DNA of 64,000 nt from an uncultured Alphaproteobacteria bacterium (lineage in GTDB: Bacteria > Pseudomonadota > Alphaproteobacteria > Rs-D84): contig CASCZI010000003.1 of assembly GCA_949156565.1 (NCBI GenBank), positions 62,001 to 126,000 of the forward strand. Direction: 5' to 3'. Shown here in pieces: positions 3,025 to 29,437 of this stretch (within the stretch, counting starts at the first letter, position 1; every line of letters begins with the position of its first letter). A program made the position numbers and the translations under genes. The notes beneath the pieces are model-generated. The model searched no databases. It worked only from the letters and a program-made list of their open reading frames with translations, and had not been told where the DNA came from.

Positions 3025-3642
3025 TCATTTTGTTGGGGGTGTTGTCGTGGCAACGATGGCGGGCGCGCCCGCGGTCGACGCCCCGGAAATGGATGTTGTT
3101 TGGGCAATTTCGTGGCTATGGGTATCCATTGTCTTACCCGTGGATGATATCACGTCACCCCCAGATGTAATGTCACCGCCGCTGGTAATTGTTCCCGGGG
3201 TGGTGACGACACCCTTTTGGGTAATTTTTACACCGTTGATAATGACCCCATCTTTGGACATTGATATATGGTTGTCATTGACATCATCCATGGTAATCCC
3301 ATCTTTGGATAATTTTACCATTTGATTGCGCATGTCGTATACACAAACATCGCCCGATTCCAAACACTTTATGCGATATTTACGATCGCCCACGGCAATA
3401 ACAATGTATTTCCCATTTCGTTCAACCGCAATGGCATCCAAATCCAATGGTGGATTGCATGCAATGCCATATTGACCAAAAACTTCGACATTGTTATACA
3501 CGGCCTGACCAATTGTTTTAATCTGCATGTTTTGCAGATCTGTTTCATCATTGACTGCTTTGATAATTGCGCCGACAATAATTCGTCGAATTCGTGCGGT
3601 AATCGGTGTCAAAAGTCTTTGAAATGCGCGAATATTGCTCAT
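3025..3642 (-). CDS. Mu gp45-like baseplate spike protein
   Basis: 205 residues from the ATG at 3642, chosen because AGGAAAGGAAAT lies directly before it and the ATG overlaps the TGA of the upstream gene (ATGA). The sequence RRLIVG-type N-terminus (ARIRRIIVGAIIKAVND) plus the QNMQIKTIGQAVYNNVEVFG tract match Mu gp45, the membrane-piercing central spike. The C-terminal half has short repeats rich in Gly, Thr and Val (GGDITSGGDVISSTGKTMDT) that suit a beta-helical needle, followed by HSHEIAQTT, where paired histidines could bind the tip metal seen in other spikes (inference). Confidence 0.85.
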   Translation of the reverse strand: MSNIRAFQRLLTPITARIRRIIVGAIIKAVNDETDLQNMQIKTIGQAVYNNVEVFGQYGIACNPPLDLDAIAVERNGKYIVIAVGDRKYRIKCLESGDVCVYDMRNQMVKLSKDGITMDDVNDNHISMSKDGVIINGVKITQKGVVTTPGTITSGGDITSGGDVISSTGKTMDTHSHEIAQTTSISGASTAGAPAIVATTTPPTK

Positions 3643-4739
3643 ATTTCCTTTCCTGAATAATACCACGGGTCGCGGACACGCGTCCGGGGAACATAATTTT
3701 TGATCATGGCATTTGGGTACGCCAATTTGAACGTTGTTATTCGGCCGCCTGTTCCCGAAATTGTTAAATCACACGATTTCACCACCAATTTCGTCATACA
3801 GTGTGCCATGCTGTCTTCGACATTGACGAATGCACCGGCATACCAAATGCGCCCATATTGTGTCTTCCATCCATTTGTTGTATATCCAAAATCCGCGGCC
3901 GCGGCGGTTGATGCCATATATTCTTGTTCGGCAGTGTTGGTGTCGGCCGCGCTGTCCTGCGATGTTTCCGCAATAACCAATTTTGGACGATAGCGCCGCA
4001 CCCCGTGATCGCGAACCACCCCATCGTGGGTATATGCATTATCCGCAGTTTCATCCCCCATTTGCGCGGTGGCCTGGGATACGACGCGATATTCGGAAAA
4101 ACGATCGCGCGATGAATAATGGACCGACCCAACCAGAATGTTTGAACCCGTGTCTTTGGGCGGATTAAACAGTGTTGCCTGTGATGGGGTGCTGGTTAAA
4201 TCGGTTATAATCAAATTTCCATATTCATCATCGGTATAAAAAACGCCGCCCCGTTTGCAAATTTCACTGATGATGGCGGCGCACGTGTCGCCAACATTTG
4301 TGTTCAATTCACCTATTTGCCAATCGGTACATTTCCAAATCACCCTAATCCCAAAGGGTGCACAAATCCGATTGATGATCCCACGGGCGGATTCCTGGTT
4401 AAATTGGGTATCGCCAATGTATGAACAGTCCACCAAATCGCATGTCTTACTGCGGGCTTTAATGGTGATGCTATGCGATTTTGAATCATAATTAACGCCG
4501 ACATCATCAATGTACCCGGTCACGACTGTCAACCCATCGCATATGACTGTGCACGGGGAATCCATTAAAATTTGTGCCGCATTGGATTCGTTGCCGTCGG
4601 ATACGTCAAATGTGGCTTCGCGGCAAAATTCCCCCATCCCGATATGAATTGATGCCGATTTCCAAAACGAATATTTGGTCGCCCCAATTTTAACAATAAT
4701 ATTCGTGGTGTCAAAACTGGCCAGGTTTTCGCGTATCAT
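3639..4739 (-). CDS. Mu gp44-like baseplate hub protein
   Basis: 366 residues. N-terminal KIGATKYSFWKSASIHIGMG and the later GDTCAAIISEICKRGGVFYT segment are those of the Mu gp44 (P) / gpD-like hub family, which forms the central ring that carries the spike. The start overlaps the gp43-like gene by 4 bases and the stop overlaps the spike gene, so the three are translationally coupled. Length is normal. Confidence 0.85.
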   Translation of the reverse strand: MIRENLASFDTTNIIVKIGATKYSFWKSASIHIGMGEFCREATFDVSDGNESNAAQILMDSPCTVICDGLTVVTGYIDDVGVNYDSKSHSITIKARSKTCDLVDCSYIGDTQFNQESARGIINRICAPFGIRVIWKCTDWQIGELNTNVGDTCAAIISEICKRGGVFYTDDEYGNLIITDLTSTPSQATLFNPPKDTGSNILVGSVHYSSRDRFSEYRVVSQATAQMGDETADNAYTHDGVVRDHGVRRYRPKLVIAETSQDSAADTNTAEQEYMASTAAAADFGYTTNGWKTQYGRIWYAGAFVNVEDSMAHCMTKLVVKSCDLTISGTGGRITTFKLAYPNAMIKNYVPRTRVRDPWYYSGKEI

Positions 4740-5950
4740 TTCTTCAACACCTTTAATATCGTACCGCTGGGGACAAACGTCGGGTTGGGAATTTCATTTT
4801 CATTGGCAATTTCTTCATACCGCGATTGATCGCCGTATAATTTATGGGCCAACACGCGCGCCGGGACCGGGGACGGAATTGTTATTTCCTGCTCTTCTGG
4901 CAACTGGGCAATAACATCATTGCAGACCGCAGATGCGGCGGCAGATAAATCGGACAATGCGGTTGTAAATTCCGGGGACATGGCAATATCGGCACCCAAT
5001 ATGGTATCAATCGTGTCATTAAATGCGTCCAATATTTCACGGACATCCCCGCGACGGTCCGTTTCCATCACGGCAATCAACTGGGCGGCGGATGTTGCCG
5101 CCTTGGCCAGGTTAAAATTATTGGTACGGATCATTGCACTGTATTCCTGGGCGCCCTTGGTGTTGGACTGATCAATTTTCGATGCATCAAATCCAGATGA
5201 CGCTGTCAATAGAACAGATTTTGTATTTTTTTTGTTTGCGGGCAATAACCCGATAACTGTATCGGTTGCGGCTTTGACGCGCGCGGTCCAAACACCCGGC
5301 GTTTCCAATAAATTTTGGGCATTATCTGATAAATCCGACAAAGACATCGCAACGGCGGCGATTCCATCAATGGCACCCGTTATGCTATCTGCCGCGGATT
5401 GAACCCCATCTATGATCGCGGAAAAATTATCAACGACCGAACGCGCCAATCCGGACACTGCCGCTGCATTTGACGCAACATAATCAGCACCGATTTTCAA
5501 AAATTCGGCCGCATTTGCAATATCCAGTGTGGCGGCGGCAGATAACAGCCGGTCCGTCAATGATATGGACACCATCGGCGAAGGTTGTTCCCCTGATTCA
5601 ATAAAGTTTATGGTAAATTCTGCTTCAAACAGGGCATGCCGTTCATGCATGTTATATGTTTGAACACATACATTGTATGTCTTGCCGTTTGGATGAACCA
5701 GTTCCCCGGGGCCTTTCTTTTCCAGCGCATCCACCAATGCATCAGATTGCTTGCGCCAGTCTTGTCCATTTACGAAAGCATTTATTTGAATCTGGCGGGC
5801 CTTTCGTCCCAAATCTTCGGTCATGGGGCGTTCGCCGCCGGGGTATTCGTGGGTTTCATTGCGTCGACCACCGGTTGCTTCGTTTACACGAACATGGAAT
5901 GGCACACCACGAAATGACGGCGAACGGTTATATTTTGCAAAATCTGTCAT
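4736..5950 (-). CDS. Mu gp43-like DNA circularisation / tail protein
   Basis: 404 residues. Residues 1-120 (SPSFRGVPFHVRVNEATGGR, then YPGGERPMTEDLGRKARQI) are a clear DNA_circ_N domain. The middle is Ala/Asp-rich helical, and the last 50 residues (ARVLAHKLYGDQSRYEEIAN ending in PSGTILKV) look like a LysM-type fold, as in other baseplate proteins of this family. Despite the family name the protein is a tail component in Mu. It overlaps both neighbours by 4 bases. Confidence 0.85.
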   Translation of the reverse strand: MTDFAKYNRSPSFRGVPFHVRVNEATGGRRNETHEYPGGERPMTEDLGRKARQIQINAFVNGQDWRKQSDALVDALEKKGPGELVHPNGKTYNVCVQTYNMHERHALFEAEFTINFIESGEQPSPMVSISLTDRLLSAAATLDIANAAEFLKIGADYVASNAAAVSGLARSVVDNFSAIIDGVQSAADSITGAIDGIAAVAMSLSDLSDNAQNLLETPGVWTARVKAATDTVIGLLPANKKNTKSVLLTASSGFDASKIDQSNTKGAQEYSAMIRTNNFNLAKAATSAAQLIAVMETDRRGDVREILDAFNDTIDTILGADIAMSPEFTTALSDLSAAASAVCNDVIAQLPEEQEITIPSPVPARVLAHKLYGDQSRYEEIANENEIPNPTFVPSGTILKVLKK

Positions 5951-7683
5951 ATAACACCCCCATTGATACCGCGATAAATCTCAACATCCAAATCTGCATC
6001 TGTGGATTTGGTATCCACGCGCGCGCCGGCGGGCAAATTATCAAATCGGACATTGATGGCGGCGCTTTGTTTGCCGCCGCCCATTGTGGCCATGCTGATT
6101 TGTGATTGATTAAGACGCGCAGCATCATATTCCGGTACCGGCGACATTAATGAATTGGATTGTGCATTGTATAGGGGCGACATGCCGGGTGATTCTGATG
6201 CTTGGATCAGTCCGTTTTGTCCCATCCAATCGTTTGTTGCAATTTGCTGTTCAACGGTTAATTTGCGTTTTTTACCAAATAAATGCTCATCCAGCCATTT
6301 GATACCGTCAATGATGGCCATAATGGCTTTGTACAGTATTTTGAACGGCGCAATGATTGCATTAAACCATGTTTTCAATCCTGCAAATACTTTCTTTACA
6401 ATCGGATACTTGTCTGCAAATTTCTGGACCGCGGCTGTGATTTTGTCCCAATTTTTCCATGCCAGATAAATCACACCGCACAGCGCGATAATCGCCGCAA
6501 CAATCCATGTAATCGGATTTGCCCACAGTGCGGCATTAAACGCCCAAACGGCCTTGACCGCGGTCCAAATGGTCGTTGCCGCCGTTAAAATGGCATTGAA
6601 CAGACTTTTGCCCAACAACCCACGCACAATCACCATCGCGCGGGACATCGAAGATATGCCATTTGTAAATAACCCCAATGACTTAATTCCGCCCATAAAT
6701 GCCGGGGCCAACCCGACAACCGTTTTCCCCAGTGTCGCAACCTGCAAAGCAATTTTACCCAATTTTGCGTAAAATAACACCGTCAACACCCATGAAAAAT
6801 GGGTTGCAACCTTGGCAACCGGTGTCAATATCGCCAAAAGTGTCTTAAACATTGATGTCAATTGACTGATAAAATTTGAAACTTTGGTCGCAATTAATTC
6901 ACGATTTTCTGCCACCCAATCGGCCAACTGATTTATCAGCGGTGTCAGGGATGGAACAACTTTGGATGCAATGGTTGCCGCCAATCCCTGGCCCGCAAAT
7001 TTAACACGATCAATGGCCTTGTTCATGGTATCCATGGCGGCGGCATCTTTTTCACTGATGACACCGAACTTTTCGGCTTCTTTTTCCCACCGCGCCATTT
7101 CTTCCGCGCCAATATTGGCCAATGAAATTAATTCCTGACCCGCGCGGCCAAATGCAGATGTGGCCAAAAATGCCTTTTCCTGGGCATCCGTGGTATTATT
7201 GATCGCGTTCATCATGATACGAAACGCGTCTTCATTGCCCTTGGCCGCCTTTAATTGTCGCAACAATGCGGGATTTGACTTTGATAAACGGGTATACAGT
7301 GTTCCTTGGCCCGTATTGAATTCACCCATTGTTTTGGATAACATTTGCAGGGATTTGTCAAAGCCCGCGGCAGAAACATCGTTTTGGATGGCCGCATATC
7401 GTAATTTTTGCAATGCTTCCACAGGAATTCCGACAATCCCGGCCAGGGTTAGCATTTCATCCCCATAATCGGATATCTTTTTTATTCCGGCCCCTACGGC
7501 GGTGGCAACGCCGCCAACAATGGCCGAAACCTGGCCGATGGATTTACCAATTGCTTGTGTTTGCCGCTGTACGGACTGAATCTGTGCCGAAAATTTGGAA
7601 AAACGCGCCGCGACCATCTGCAATGTTTTTGTTGCACGATCTGTTGCGGTAATGACAACTTCTTTTTTTACGCTTTTAGCCAC
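5947..7683 (-). CDS. Tail tape measure protein (Mu gp42-like)
   Basis: 578 residues, starting with GTG at 7683. Typical layout: N-terminal helical domain with an YGDEMLTLAGIVGIPVEALQ segment, two hydrophobic stretches, and the signature WIVAAIIALCGVIYLAWKNW near residue 410 found in many tape measures. It sets tail length and is injected on infection. The GTG lies inside the last codons of the frameshifted chaperone product, the usual arrangement for contractile and long non-contractile tails. Confidence 0.9.
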   Translation of the reverse strand: MAKSVKKEVVITATDRATKTLQMVAARFSKFSAQIQSVQRQTQAIGKSIGQVSAIVGGVATAVGAGIKKISDYGDEMLTLAGIVGIPVEALQKLRYAAIQNDVSAAGFDKSLQMLSKTMGEFNTGQGTLYTRLSKSNPALLRQLKAAKGNEDAFRIMMNAINNTTDAQEKAFLATSAFGRAGQELISLANIGAEEMARWEKEAEKFGVISEKDAAAMDTMNKAIDRVKFAGQGLAATIASKVVPSLTPLINQLADWVAENRELIATKVSNFISQLTSMFKTLLAILTPVAKVATHFSWVLTVLFYAKLGKIALQVATLGKTVVGLAPAFMGGIKSLGLFTNGISSMSRAMVIVRGLLGKSLFNAILTAATTIWTAVKAVWAFNAALWANPITWIVAAIIALCGVIYLAWKNWDKITAAVQKFADKYPIVKKVFAGLKTWFNAIIAPFKILYKAIMAIIDGIKWLDEHLFGKKRKLTVEQQIATNDWMGQNGLIQASESPGMSPLYNAQSNSLMSPVPEYDAARLNQSQISMATMGGGKQSAAINVRFDNLPAGARVDTKSTDADLDVEIYRGINGGVI

Positions 7684-8100
7684 GGCGCATCTCTTTTGCT
7701 TGTTTTTCCGACAACTTGCACATATTGTCGTACAGCCAATTCAATTCTGGAATCGGCATGCACAACAATTCAGTTGGGGACAGGTGTAAATAAAAAACCA
7801 AGCCGCTTACCCGATCGACGGCGTGCGCGCCGTCTGTCCCCCTAAAAAAGCGATGATTTCCATTGATAATTCGGTAAATTCTTCTACTGGCAATTTATCG
7901 ACATCCCCATCGGTCAAATTGGACAGTTGCGCGATATATTTGGCGCAGACATCCATATTCATCTGAACCGTACCATCAACACCAATTTTATACGGCATCC
8001 CCAGTGCACGCACATCCCGCGTTGTGGGGTCACGCAATTCAATTTCACTGGTTTCAACACCGGCAACCGTGATTTTTTCTTTTAATTTATAACTTTTCAT
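7676..8100 (-). CDS. Tail assembly chaperone, -1 frameshift product (gp41/41'-like)
   Basis: The zero-frame gene (8100 to 7807, 97 residues) is the short chaperone. At 7849-7843 the minus strand reads T TTT TTA in the correct frame for a -1 slip. Eight bases later a 7-bp GC-only-bar-two hairpin (bases 7834-7817, loop CGCA) follows. After a -1 slip the frame stays open for 55 more codons to TAA at 7678-7676, giving about 141 residues and ending in a helical, Cys- and Met-containing tail (LLCMPIPELNWLYDNMCKLS). Conserved frameshifting here is known for tail chaperones; the exact slip is inferred. Confidence 0.8.
7807..8100 (-). CDS. Tail assembly chaperone, short form
   Basis: 97 residues: begins MKSYKLKEKITVAGVETSEI, with the LRDPTTRDVRALGMP segment typical of Mu gp41 / gpG-type chaperones, and ends shortly after the slippery heptamer at 7849-7843. 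The short form is expected to be made in excess over the frameshifted form and to hold the tape measure while the tube polymerises. It lies directly between the tail tube and tape measure genes, as in Mu. Confidence 0.85.
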   Translation of the reverse strand: MKSYKLKEKITVAGVETSEIELRDPTTRDVRALGMPYKIGVDGTVQMNMDVCAKYIAQLSNLTDGDVDKLPVEEFTELSMEIIAFLGGQTARTPSIG

Positions 8101-8123: not shown

Positions 8124-8489
8124 TTATTTTGTGCGCTTTGGCGGAAATTTCGAATGGAATTCCACGGACACGCGGCCTTCTTCATTGGTTTCGGCCGGGT
8201 CCCCGGAATACCAACATCCGAAATACGTCAACTGCTTGGTGCCATCCAATAAATCCAAAACGATTGTCGCGTCGGTAATTTTACTGATGCCATCTGTCGG
8301 CGCTTCGGGCGTGTTAATTAATTCGCACACCACCTTGGATGCGATCGGATCTTCGACATATCCCGCAACGCCGGATTTACCGACGCTGTCACTGCGGGTG
8401 GTGTTGTCATCGGTGTATGAATAACTGTTGCCAATGAATTTTTTCTGACCATCAATGTAAATTGTGGCGCGCGCTGCAATTTTAGACAT
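8124..8489 (-). CDS. Tail tube protein (Mu gp40-like)
   Basis: 121 residues, beginning MSKIAARATIYIDGQKKFIG and containing the VVCELINTPEAPTDGISKIT tract. Size, beta-rich composition and position directly after the sheath gene match the Mu-type tail tube (M) protein. A strong GGGGGAATAT ribosome-binding site precedes the ATG, fitting high-level expression of a major structural protein. Confidence 0.85.
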   Translation of the reverse strand: MSKIAARATIYIDGQKKFIGNSYSYTDDNTTRSDSVGKSGVAGYVEDPIASKVVCELINTPEAPTDGISKITDATIVLDLLDGTKQLTYFGCWYSGDPAETNEEGRVSVEFHSKFPPKRTK

Positions 8490-8501: not shown

Positions 8502-9971
8502 TTAATAATTCAATCTGAATTCAACCAATGCGGCAAATACCAGGAATTGATTCACCAAATCTGGACCGATGTATGTGTTTACGCGGTCCGGATCATTTTT
8601 ATCGCGTTCAACCACCAACGCGTCGTTGAATGCGGTTTCATTTTCAACGACAACCGGTGCATTGACGCACATATCGTGGTATTCGGCCACAATTGCCGCT
8701 TTGATGATGCCCGGTGTCACGACCGCGTTGTCAAAACCGACATAACCGTCGTCCGCCAATTTGTAATCCGGGAATTTCGACGTTATGACACTGCGCAAAC
8801 GGCGAATGATATACTGTAATGTGAACGGCGTGTTGACCCCACGATATGACACATCCGCTTCGCCGCTTTTATTGCGTTGGTATGTTGTGACGACACGTTC
8901 AATCTTGACGACCCCGTTATCGGCGACAAATGTTGAAATGCCGTTTTTCAACAGTGTATTGCGGGTTGTTTTGTCCCACAAATCTGATTCACGCGGGGCA
9001 ATAATACCGTTCATTGTCATGAATGTCATCGGTCGTGCTGGATCGTTAATCAGACGCAACGCCGCATTGCCAACCCCTGCCGCCAACCATTCGTCGGTCA
9101 ACTGGCGCGGTCCTTGGATTCCCCAAATTGTCATATGCTGGTCGTTGCGGGCGTTTCCGAATGTCTGGGCCGCGGATGCCATGCCTGCAAACATAGAAAA
9201 GACATGCCCATAAATCTGCTGACCATCAGACCAGCGCCCGGTCACATCATTCATCCAATCACGAAATACGTTCAAATTTACCGTGTCGCAGAATGGATTG
9301 GCGATAAAATCGTATTCTTTATCACCCAAAACCGCCAATTTTTCCGTCAAATCAGGATCGCCAGCCCCATTGGCAAAATTCGTGAATTCTACTTTGATGC
9401 CCGCAGGCATTTCTTCACCGGCATCCACGCCATTCATATTTAATTCAATGCAAATACCGTTGCCCCATGCACCTTTGGCATTTGCGGTCAATGTTAATTC
9501 TGCGTTTTCCGCGGTTGCGGTCGCCGGCAAACGTTTATTAGCATTAACCAAGTCCGCGGTCGCCGATGCCAGTGTGGCGGCGGTATCGCCCGCTGCAACG
9601 GGAACTTGGATGCGTGTTGCATTGATGTATAGATTAAGCATTCCGTCGGCTGTTGCCGTTCCAGCCAAGGTCAGCGAACCGGACGCAGCAACGCCGGCGG
9701 AATTTTCTTTGACGGGCAATAACCACAGTTCTGTGGACGGATTATTTTTGCGAAAGAACAAAAACATACGGTGACACTGTGAACCGATGCCTGTGCGATC
9801 AGTGACCGTTTGTTCGTTTGTTGCCAGAAATGGTGTTTCATCTACGTCACTATTGGAAATACCAATCAACAACGCGCGCCCTGTATTTTGGAAAATGTTG
9901 GCCGCACGGTTCGACACTTCGGCATGAAACAACGGCAACAGCGTATCGCTTGGAATATTTTCATAATTCAT
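8502..9971 (-). CDS. Tail sheath protein (Mu gp39/L-like)
   Basis: 489 residues. Contains LYINATRIQVPVAAGDTAAT-type sheath domain sequence in the first third and C-terminal PDYKLADDGYVGFDNAVVTP followed by an E-x-x-x-V-V region, as in Mu-type contractile sheaths. Its presence establishes a myovirus-type contractile tail. GGGGGAAAAA precedes the ATG. It is followed by the tube gene 12 bases on. Confidence 0.9.
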   Translation of the reverse strand: MNYENIPSDTLLPLFHAEVSNRAANIFQNTGRALLIGISNSDVDETPFLATNEQTVTDRTGIGSQCHRMFLFFRKNNPSTELWLLPVKENSAGVAASGSLTLAGTATADGMLNLYINATRIQVPVAAGDTAATLASATADLVNANKRLPATATAENAELTLTANAKGAWGNGICIELNMNGVDAGEEMPAGIKVEFTNFANGAGDPDLTEKLAVLGDKEYDFIANPFCDTVNLNVFRDWMNDVTGRWSDGQQIYGHVFSMFAGMASAAQTFGNARNDQHMTIWGIQGPRQLTDEWLAAGVGNAALRLINDPARPMTFMTMNGIIAPRESDLWDKTTRNTLLKNGISTFVADNGVVKIERVVTTYQRNKSGEADVSYRGVNTPFTLQYIIRRLRSVITSKFPDYKLADDGYVGFDNAVVTPGIIKAAIVAEYHDMCVNAPVVVENETAFNDALVVERDKNDPDRVNTYIGPDLVNQFLVFAALVEFRLNY

Positions 9972-23294: not shown

Positions 23295-23960
23295 ATGAAC
23301 AATAAATATGGTTTTATTCGGCGTCGTTTGGCTGATTTGAACAAATCGCAGACTGAATTATCCGAAACTCTTCACTTGCAGGCGCCTGCAATCAATAAAA
23401 TCATGACGGGACAACGTGGAATAAAAGGTGAAGAAGTTGCACCATTGGCCGATTTTTTGAATTATAATGTGGAATCATTCGCAAATTATGTTTCTGGCGA
23501 AATTTCCAATCCTGACGATATATTAGAAGCAAATGAATCAAATGTCCCTGATACAATAAAAATTCCATATTATAATGTTGCTGCCAGCGCAGGGGCAGGT
23601 ATATATAGCGGGCAGGACTATGTGCAATCTTTCTTACGTGTTTCTGTTGGTCGATTTGCGGATAGAATTATGAATGCAAAATCTGTTTCCGCGATAACTG
23701 TTTGTGGGGATTCGATGAATCCAAATCTTAATGATGGTGATATTATTTTAGTTGACACATCATCAAAAGACATTTCTGATGGGAAAATTTATATAATCAA
23801 TATTGACGACAAACTGTTTGTTAAACGCTTATTTATTAACCCGATTTCAAAAAAAATCATTATCCGTTCTGATAACCCCTTTTATCCTGAATTTGAAGCA
23901 GATGAAAATACCATCGCAGTTTGCGGTCGCTTGATAATGAGGGTATTTCAAGACTTGTAA
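23295..23960 (+). CDS. CI-type phage repressor (HTH + S24 peptidase)
   Basis: 221 residues. N-terminal HTH (IRRRLADLNKSQTELSETLH), linker, then an S24/LexA-type autoprotease with cleavage region ASAGAG near residues 98-103, catalytic Ser140 in VCGDSMNP and Lys177 in LFVKRL. It maintains lysogeny and is expected to self-cleave on RecA activation after DNA damage. Divergent from the Cro-like gene. AAAAAGGTG precedes the ATG. Confidence 0.9.
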   Translation: MNNKYGFIRRRLADLNKSQTELSETLHLQAPAINKIMTGQRGIKGEEVAPLADFLNYNVESFANYVSGEISNPDDILEANESNVPDTIKIPYYNVAASAGAGIYSGQDYVQSFLRVSVGRFADRIMNAKSVSAITVCGDSMNPNLNDGDIILVDTSSKDISDGKIYIINIDDKLFVKRLFINPISKKIIIRSDNPFYPEFEADENTIAVCGRLIMRVFQDL

Positions 23961-27934: not shown

Positions 27935-29437
27935 ATGATAAAAACATGCGTGATTTTGGCGCGGATCAGTTCAGACAAACAAGACAGAGAATACTCGCTG
28001 CCTGCGCAGGTATCACGCCTGAACGAATATGCCGCGCGGCGGCAAATGACGGTCGTGCGTGAAGCGACGATTATTGAATCCAGCACGATTGGCGATCGCA
28101 AACAGTTTCTTGAAATTATTAATTTTTGCATAAAAAATCATGCCGCATTATTGATTGATACCATTGACCGCGCCCAGCGTTCTTTCTCGGAAATCCCACT
28201 TTTGGAAAAATATCGAAAATCTGGAAAACTGGAAATCCATTTTTGTCGTGAAAATATCATTATAAATGACAAATCTTCGGGGTCTGATATTATCATGTGG
28301 CACCAGGGTGTCCTGATGGCCGAAGCGTATAGTTTGCATTTTCGGGAAAATGTTAAACGTTCTATTTCTGCCAAGGTATTAAAGGGTGAATACCCGGGTC
28401 GTGGTCCCATGGGGTATAAAAACATCCGGACGCCGGATAATCGATCTGATATTATTATTGATAATGAAACCGCCGACCGTGTACGCCAATTATTTGCAGA
28501 ATATGCAACCGGGGCTATGTCATTAAAAACTTTGGTTGATTATGCCTATGATTTGGGGTTGCGGACCGCGTCTGGGGACCGTCTGGCCAAAGGGCACGTT
28601 CATAAAATTATAACAAATCCCTTTTATTATGGCGTTGCCAAGTGGGGGGAATATCAATTCGAGCATAAATATCCGCGCTTAATTGAAAAATCAGTGTGGG
28701 ACAGATGTAACGCGATTTTGACAGGTAAAAACCAGCATGTCGCCACCAGATGGGGGTCAAAAAAGTATTTATACCGCGGGTTAATCCGCGATCATTATTC
28801 GCAGCGTATTGTGACGACGGAACGCAAAAAGAACCGATATAACTATCTGATGACCTGGAACGAAGCGGGCACCCATGTGGCGGTCAATGAAGATATTGTT
28901 ACCGGCCAGATTTATCGTATATTGAAAATGATTCAGGTGCCACGCGCCGCGGTCGCGGACGTTCGCGATTATTTGAAATCGGCCAAGGAAATGGAAATTG
29001 AATTTCATAAACGCATAATGTCTGAATTAAAGGAAAATTTGGCAACAAACGAACGCCGCAAGGCTGCATTGTTGACCATGCGGCTGGACTATAAAATTGA
29101 CGATGTTGCCTATGCGGCCAAGGATGCAGAATTAAAACAAGAAAATTTGGAATTGCGTAATAAAATCGCCGCACACACGTATTGTGACGACAATGTAAAT
29201 GATATTATTGTGACGCTATTCAACGCGGCATCGTGCGCCGCAGACGTATTTATCGACGAAAGTTCGGAAGTTGAAATAAAACGCAGTCTATTAAAACGCA
29301 TCTTCCGAACCCTGGAATTAAAAGAGAAAACCCTTTGTTATGACTTGACTTTTCCGTTCAATATGTTCATAACAAAGGGCATTTCTGATAACTGGCGCGC
29401 CCAGAAGGATTCGAACCCTCAACCTTCTGATCCGTAG
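27935..29437 (+). CDS. Large serine recombinase (phage integrase)
   Basis: 500 residues. Resolvase domain at the N-terminus with the catalytic Ser in LARISSDKQDREYSLPAQVS, the later Arg-containing FREN VKRSISAKVL region, a recombinase domain (PFYYGVAKWGEYQFEHKYPR) and a zinc-ribbon/coiled-coil C-terminal half. It integrates and, with a directionality factor, excises the prophage. The last 14 residues (WRAQKDSNPQPSDP) are the antisense of tRNA-Arg, so the gene's 3' end overlaps the attachment site. Confidence 0.92.
   Translation: MIKTCVILARISSDKQDREYSLPAQVSRLNEYAARRQMTVVREATIIESSTIGDRKQFLEIINFCIKNHAALLIDTIDRAQRSFSEIPLLEKYRKSGKLEIHFCRENIIINDKSSGSDIIMWHQGVLMAEAYSLHFRENVKRSISAKVLKGEYPGRGPMGYKNIRTPDNRSDIIIDNETADRVRQLFAEYATGAMSLKTLVDYAYDLGLRTASGDRLAKGHVHKIITNPFYYGVAKWGEYQFEHKYPRLIEKSVWDRCNAILTGKNQHVATRWGSKKYLYRGLIRDHYSQRIVTTERKKNRYNYLMTWNEAGTHVAVNEDIVTGQIYRILKMIQVPRAAVADVRDYLKSAKEMEIEFHKRIMSELKENLATNERRKAALLTMRLDYKIDDVAYAAKDAELKQENLELRNKIAAHTYCDDNVNDIIVTLFNAASCAADVFIDESSEVEIKRSLLKRIFRTLELKEKTLCYDLTFPFNMFITKGISDNWRAQKDSNPQPSDP
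29331..29379. repeat. 13-bp perfect inverted repeat beside the attachment site
   Basis: Arms CCCTTTGTTATGA (29331-29343) and TCATAACAAAGGG (29367-29379), 23 bases apart, inside the last codons of the integrase gene and just before tRNA-Arg. Could be the serine-integrase recognition repeat, a terminator-like hairpin, or both. No T-tract follows. Confidence 0.5.

Follow-up and report, generated by a model that had tools for sequence, protein, structure and literature searches.

A predicted −1 ribosomal frameshift in the PF10109 tail chaperone gene of an SfV-like alphaproteobacterial prophage

Phage tail assembly chaperones form a family known for its use of fusion proteins (PMC5009743, PMC3091744). 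In P2, ribosomes shift into the −1 frame at TTTTTTG without any downstream structure (PMC3091744), and the heptamer that we read in the P2 sequence is T_TTT_TTG. Mu, with its −2 shift, is the exception (PMC5009743; PMC4378225). The closest annotated phages by chaperone to the one described here are SfI, SfV, SKA5, AH07, DVM-2008 and similar phages. A T_TTT_TTN site followed by a −1 extension is present in all six annotated phage relatives that were read, namely SfV, DVM-2008, PBb002, AH07, BgVeeders33 and ST64B.

We analyzed the corresponding locus in a 64,000-nucleotide stretch of an uncultured alphaproteobacterial genome (contig CASCZI010000003.1, positions 62,001–126,000), referred to below as the window. 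The features around the putative frameshift site are as follows.

8502..9971, minus strand: tail sheath protein (PF04984, E 8.7e-18; PHROG 165, E 9.9e-159)
8124..8489, minus strand: tail tube protein (PF10618, E 1e-14)
7807..8100, minus strand: zero-frame tail assembly chaperone, 97 aa, 10.6 kDa (matches to PF10109 and PHROG 166)
7849–7843, minus strand: slippery heptamer T_TTT_TTA, in frame, codons 84–86 of the 97-codon ORF
7842–7835, minus strand: spacer GGGGGACA between heptamer and hairpin
7817..7834, minus strand: GC-rich hairpin, a perfect 7 bp starting 8 nt past the heptamer, made of GACGGCG (7834–7828), a CGCA loop and CGCCGTC (7823–7817)
7809–7807, minus strand: zero-frame stop TAA, 11 codons past the heptamer
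7676..7843, minus strand: −1-frame extension, 55 codons and a stop, corresponding to P2 E′ and lambda T
5947..7683, minus strand: tape measure protein (PHROG 8462, E 1.3e-37), whose GTG start (7683) falls within the final codons of the extension

The chaperone ORF matches Pfam family PF10109 (Phage_TAC_7; E 1.3e-12, 48 bits, above the curated cut-off of 25), which is described as "phage tail assembly chaperone proteins, E, or 41 or 14", that is, the P2 E/Mu gp41 family. It also matches the PHROG 166 tail protein (E 1.7e-13). The gene is flanked by the tail tube gene (PF10618) and the tape measure gene (PHROG 8462), and its product, the short form, is the counterpart of P2 gpE and lambda gpG. 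The arrangement put forward in the original prediction, an in-frame T TTT TTA at 7849–7843 followed by an eight-base spacer and a perfect 7-bp hairpin with a CGCA loop, was confirmed in all its elements. So was the −1 frame said to be open for 55 codons up to the start codon (GTG) of the tape measure gene; the extension ends at a TAA at 7678–7676. The predicted products are the zero-frame protein of 97 aa (10.6 kDa) and a fusion of 141 aa (15.9 kDa), and the latter agrees with the 16-kDa product that had been anticipated. As read from the sequence, the gene very probably undergoes a programmed −1 frameshift at T_TTT_TTA, probably aided by the hairpin, that would give the 141-aa fusion beside the 97-aa chaperone.

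The heptamer by itself is weak evidence, because TTTTTTA is common in the window (68 copies) and in-frame T_TTT_TTN recurs in phage ORFs (5 in the 6,068 codons of 20 ORFs). Four close relatives were compared: L005 and L006, from two uncultured proteobacterial MAGs, L007, from a MAG labelled Rickettsiales, and L008, an IMG/VR contig. L008 was the one relative found in a scan of viral contigs with the −1 extension as the query; the same kind of scan returned no relatives when the query was the chaperone or the sheath protein. T_TTT_TTA or T_TTT_TTC occupies the same place in all four, at the same distance of 11 codons from the zero-frame stop as in the window, and the overlap of the tape measure GTG with the end of the extension is common to L005, L006 and L008. 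A relative that keeps the gene and has lost the heptamer, a case raised in the original prediction, was looked for among these four, and each of them has kept the heptamer. Chaperone identity to the window is 60% in both L005 and L006 and 39% in L007, and identity of the extension is 68% in L005 and L006 and 60% in L007 and L008.

The pattern of substitution bears on how the extension is read. Past the zero-frame stop, the window and L005 differ at 9, 2 and 20 sites at the first, second and third positions, respectively, of −1-frame codons. Thirty-one of 41 residues are kept in this comparison. When the same number of changes is placed randomly, 20.6 residues are kept on average and never more than 28, and a stop is created in 81% of the placements. 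The third-position excess, the residues kept and the frequency of stops in random placements together argue that the −1 frame is under selection at the protein level. Judged on these alignments, the conserved place of the heptamer in five sequences, taken with the conserved −1-frame protein, exceeds what would be expected by chance. This comparative evidence strongly supports the proposed frameshift in the tail chaperone.

One of the relatives is degraded. L007 (2651–3782 of JAITCH010000010.1) is a decayed prophage remnant in which the chaperone, T_TTT_TTA and the −1 extension are intact. Its tape measure gene lies apart from the chaperone and is shortened to a 96-codon ORF (3492–3782), directly followed by a 674-aa ORF resembling a host RNase J gene and by a GapA-like start (both names assigned by eye).

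To place the window in its family, 385 genomes of its class, the Alphaproteobacteria, to which its match profile and the labels of its relatives assign it, were searched for PF10109, and sites were read at 31 loci, including that of the window. An in-frame X_XXY_YYZ site with a −1 extension of about 50–60 codons is present at 29 of the 31. The heptamer is T_TTT_TTN at 20 of those 29 loci and G_GGT_TTT, G_GGA_AAG, G_GGA_AAC/T or C_CCT_TTG at the rest. The two other loci, L035 and L037, extend in the +1/−2 frame instead. L035 (genome G488) carries CGGGGGCGAG, a string also found at the Mu site, which suggests that the −2 shift of Mu is shared by some alphaproteobacterial prophages. No X_XXY_YYZ site was found in the PF10109 gene of L037 (genome G543), where the ORF that continues in the +1/−2 frame holds possible ATG starts; a different shift or an independent start may operate at this locus. 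The −2 shift is rare among the alphaproteobacterial relatives in this small survey. The −1 signal in the window is expected, and is uninformative about Mu-type tails, because −1 is the norm of the family and the −2 shift of Mu the exception. The view that a canonical −1 signal would be informative, or unusual for such tails, was ruled out by the survey (29 of 31 loci) and by SfV, ST64B and P2, which likewise carry it. The frameshift arrangement in the window is an ordinary and well-known one for PF10109 chaperones and is not a surprise.

A 1.3-Mb genome (G402) harbors two PF10109 chaperone loci, L011 and L012, where G_GGA_AAC or G_GGA_AAT abuts the zero-frame stop (GGGAAAC TAG and GGGAAAT TAA) and is followed by a −1 extension of 49–50 codons.

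The 7-bp hairpin is thermodynamically stable and is probably a stimulator of frameshifting. The 40-nt fold in the window has a modest excess of stability over shuffled sequences (z −1.6). In L005, L006 and L008 a hairpin begins 6 nt past the heptamer, in a register differing from that of the window, and L007 has instead an 11-bp long-range stem, GGTGCAGATGG/CCATCTGCACC. Conservation of the exact 7-bp hairpin is rejected, since the registers of the relatives differ. The heptamer and the hairpin had both been proposed as elements to look for in related prophages; the heptamer is conserved, and the exact form of the hairpin is not. We read the heptamer as essential and conserved, and the hairpin as an enhancer that drifts. 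In prophages of this small-genome alphaproteobacterial lineage, the PF10109 chaperone would retain the −1 frameshift even as the stimulatory fold drifts.

A larger fold was also considered, in which the spacer pairs with a segment beyond the zero-frame stop.

7782–7776, minus strand: TGTCCCC, a possible 3′ arm that pairs with GGGGACA of the spacer (7841–7835) in the minimum-energy fold

With this GGGGACA/TGTCCCC pairing, the three-way fold of the window reaches −30.7 kcal/mol (z −2.3). When synonymous randomization kept the −1-frame amino acids, 18% of the sequences folded as stably. The three-way fold as a significant structure, although it had stood out against dinucleotide shuffles, was rejected once the −1-frame coding was kept. 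It is improbable that a switching three-way stimulator, built from the spacer and a distant coding segment and represented in L007 by the 11-bp stem, adjusts the ratio between the chaperone forms in this lineage.

Several other explanations of the locus were weighed, the most serious of which accepts the frameshift and holds that the heptamer is enough, with no contribution from the hairpin. This is how P2 shifts, and folding z averages just −0.54 over 35 family sites, with 5 sites below −1.5 and a positive value for P2. Nevertheless, the window, L005, L006 and L008 each have a hairpin that starts 6–8 nt past the heptamer, and in the alignment of these sequences (only four were available) the 6-nt register has three helix pairs changed on both sides and outscores every slid register. 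We judge a hairpin of no effect to be rather unlikely. A one-base assembly error, or the decay of one gene, could also create an overlap by chance, homopolymer runs being common sites of error; the same frame arrangement recurs independently in four further assemblies as well as in sequenced phages, which has already refuted this explanation, and we regard its probability as negligible.

Two further explanations would produce the −1-frame protein by other means. Re-initiation just past the zero-frame stop, without frameshifting, would yield a separate short protein, for which a start is conceivable in the −1-frame codon five bases past the stop (TTG in four of the five sequences, ATG in L007). 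This codon specifies a conserved Leu/Met, and no Shine-Dalgarno sequence is evident for it. The −1-frame residues ahead of this codon, and of any possible internal start (F-F-R, D and R-V), are kept in the window, L005, L006 and L007. Re-initiation would, furthermore, give the slippery heptamer no reason to persist, in a chaperone family known for fusions (PMC5009743, PMC3091744), and we consider it very improbable. Slippage of the polymerase on the six-T homopolymer, rather than of the ribosome, is extremely improbable as the source of the −1-frame product: the tracts reported for transcriptional slippage are longer, with T runs above 8 (PMC3711429), and family sites such as GGGTTTT, GGGAAAG and CCCTTTG are compatible with tandem tRNA slippage but not with slippage of the polymerase.

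The type of prophage was addressed from the genes around the tail, which include two in the same prophage region.

23295–23960: CI-like repressor
27935–29437: integrase related to DNA invertases

The tail is of the Mu/SfV type, because genes for DNA_circ_N and gp44/GpP-like hub proteins lie downstream. The head genes match PHROGs for the major head protein, decoration protein, protease, portal and large and small terminases, a set that we read as lambda-type. The integrase is of the serine type, given its relationship to DNA invertases. With its lambda-type head, CI-like repressor and serine-type integrase, the prophage is, on gene content, an SfV-like mosaic and not a Mu-like transposable phage. 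The label "Mu-type" in the original prediction holds for the tail genes (sheath, tube, DNA_circ_N, gp44-like) and not for the rest of the phage. A Mu-like −2 frameshift was not found in the window, where the extension is in the −1 frame.

For the programmed −1 frameshift at T_TTT_TTA, the mechanism that we infer covers the slippage itself, its rate, the contribution of the hairpin and the roles of the two proteins. The Phe-tRNA on TTT and the Leu-tRNA on TTA would slip in tandem by −1 and re-pair with TTT and TTT in a minority of ribosomes, aided by the downstream hairpin. Slipped ribosomes would then read 55 further codons in the −1 frame to complete the 141-aa fusion, with the 97-aa form as the major product. 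The lambda G/GT and P2 E/E+E′ pairs suggest by analogy that the 97-aa protein may coat the tape measure protein and that the 141-aa fusion, the rare form, may recruit the tail tube subunit. The ratio of the two would control tail assembly, as in lambda G/GT (PMC5009743). The 141-aa fusion should be recorded in the annotation.

Among known systems, SfV and ST64B resemble the window in several respects. The SfV/ST64B chaperone (SfV orf13) is a PF10109-type homologue with 27–33% identity, the gene order is the same (sheath, tube, chaperone, tape measure), and their T_TTT_TTC or T_TTT_TTT sites with −1 extensions of 54–55 codons are close to T_TTT_TTA and 55 codons in the window. The zero-frame stop falls 3 codons past the heptamer in SfV and 21 in ST64B, compared to 11 in the window, and both phages lack a strong downstream hairpin, unlike the window. 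P2 E and E+E′ share the Pfam family name and have similar lengths (91 and 142 aa, versus 97 and 141 in the window), whereas the P2 heptamer ends in G instead of A and has no downstream structure.

The gp41-gp42 region of Mu differs in its shift, as the original prediction had noted: the Mu extension is in the +1/−2 frame, at a G-run, while that of the window is in the −1 frame, and the −2 shift is stated in PMC5009743. It is like the window in its tail gene order, with the chaperone ahead of the tape measure gene. The slippery sequence of lambda, G_GGA_AAG, differs from that of the window, and the lambda tail is flexible and non-contractile, unlike that of the window prophage. Lambda G/GT nevertheless follows the same logic as the window, a short chaperone accompanied by a rare −1 fusion (PMC5009743).
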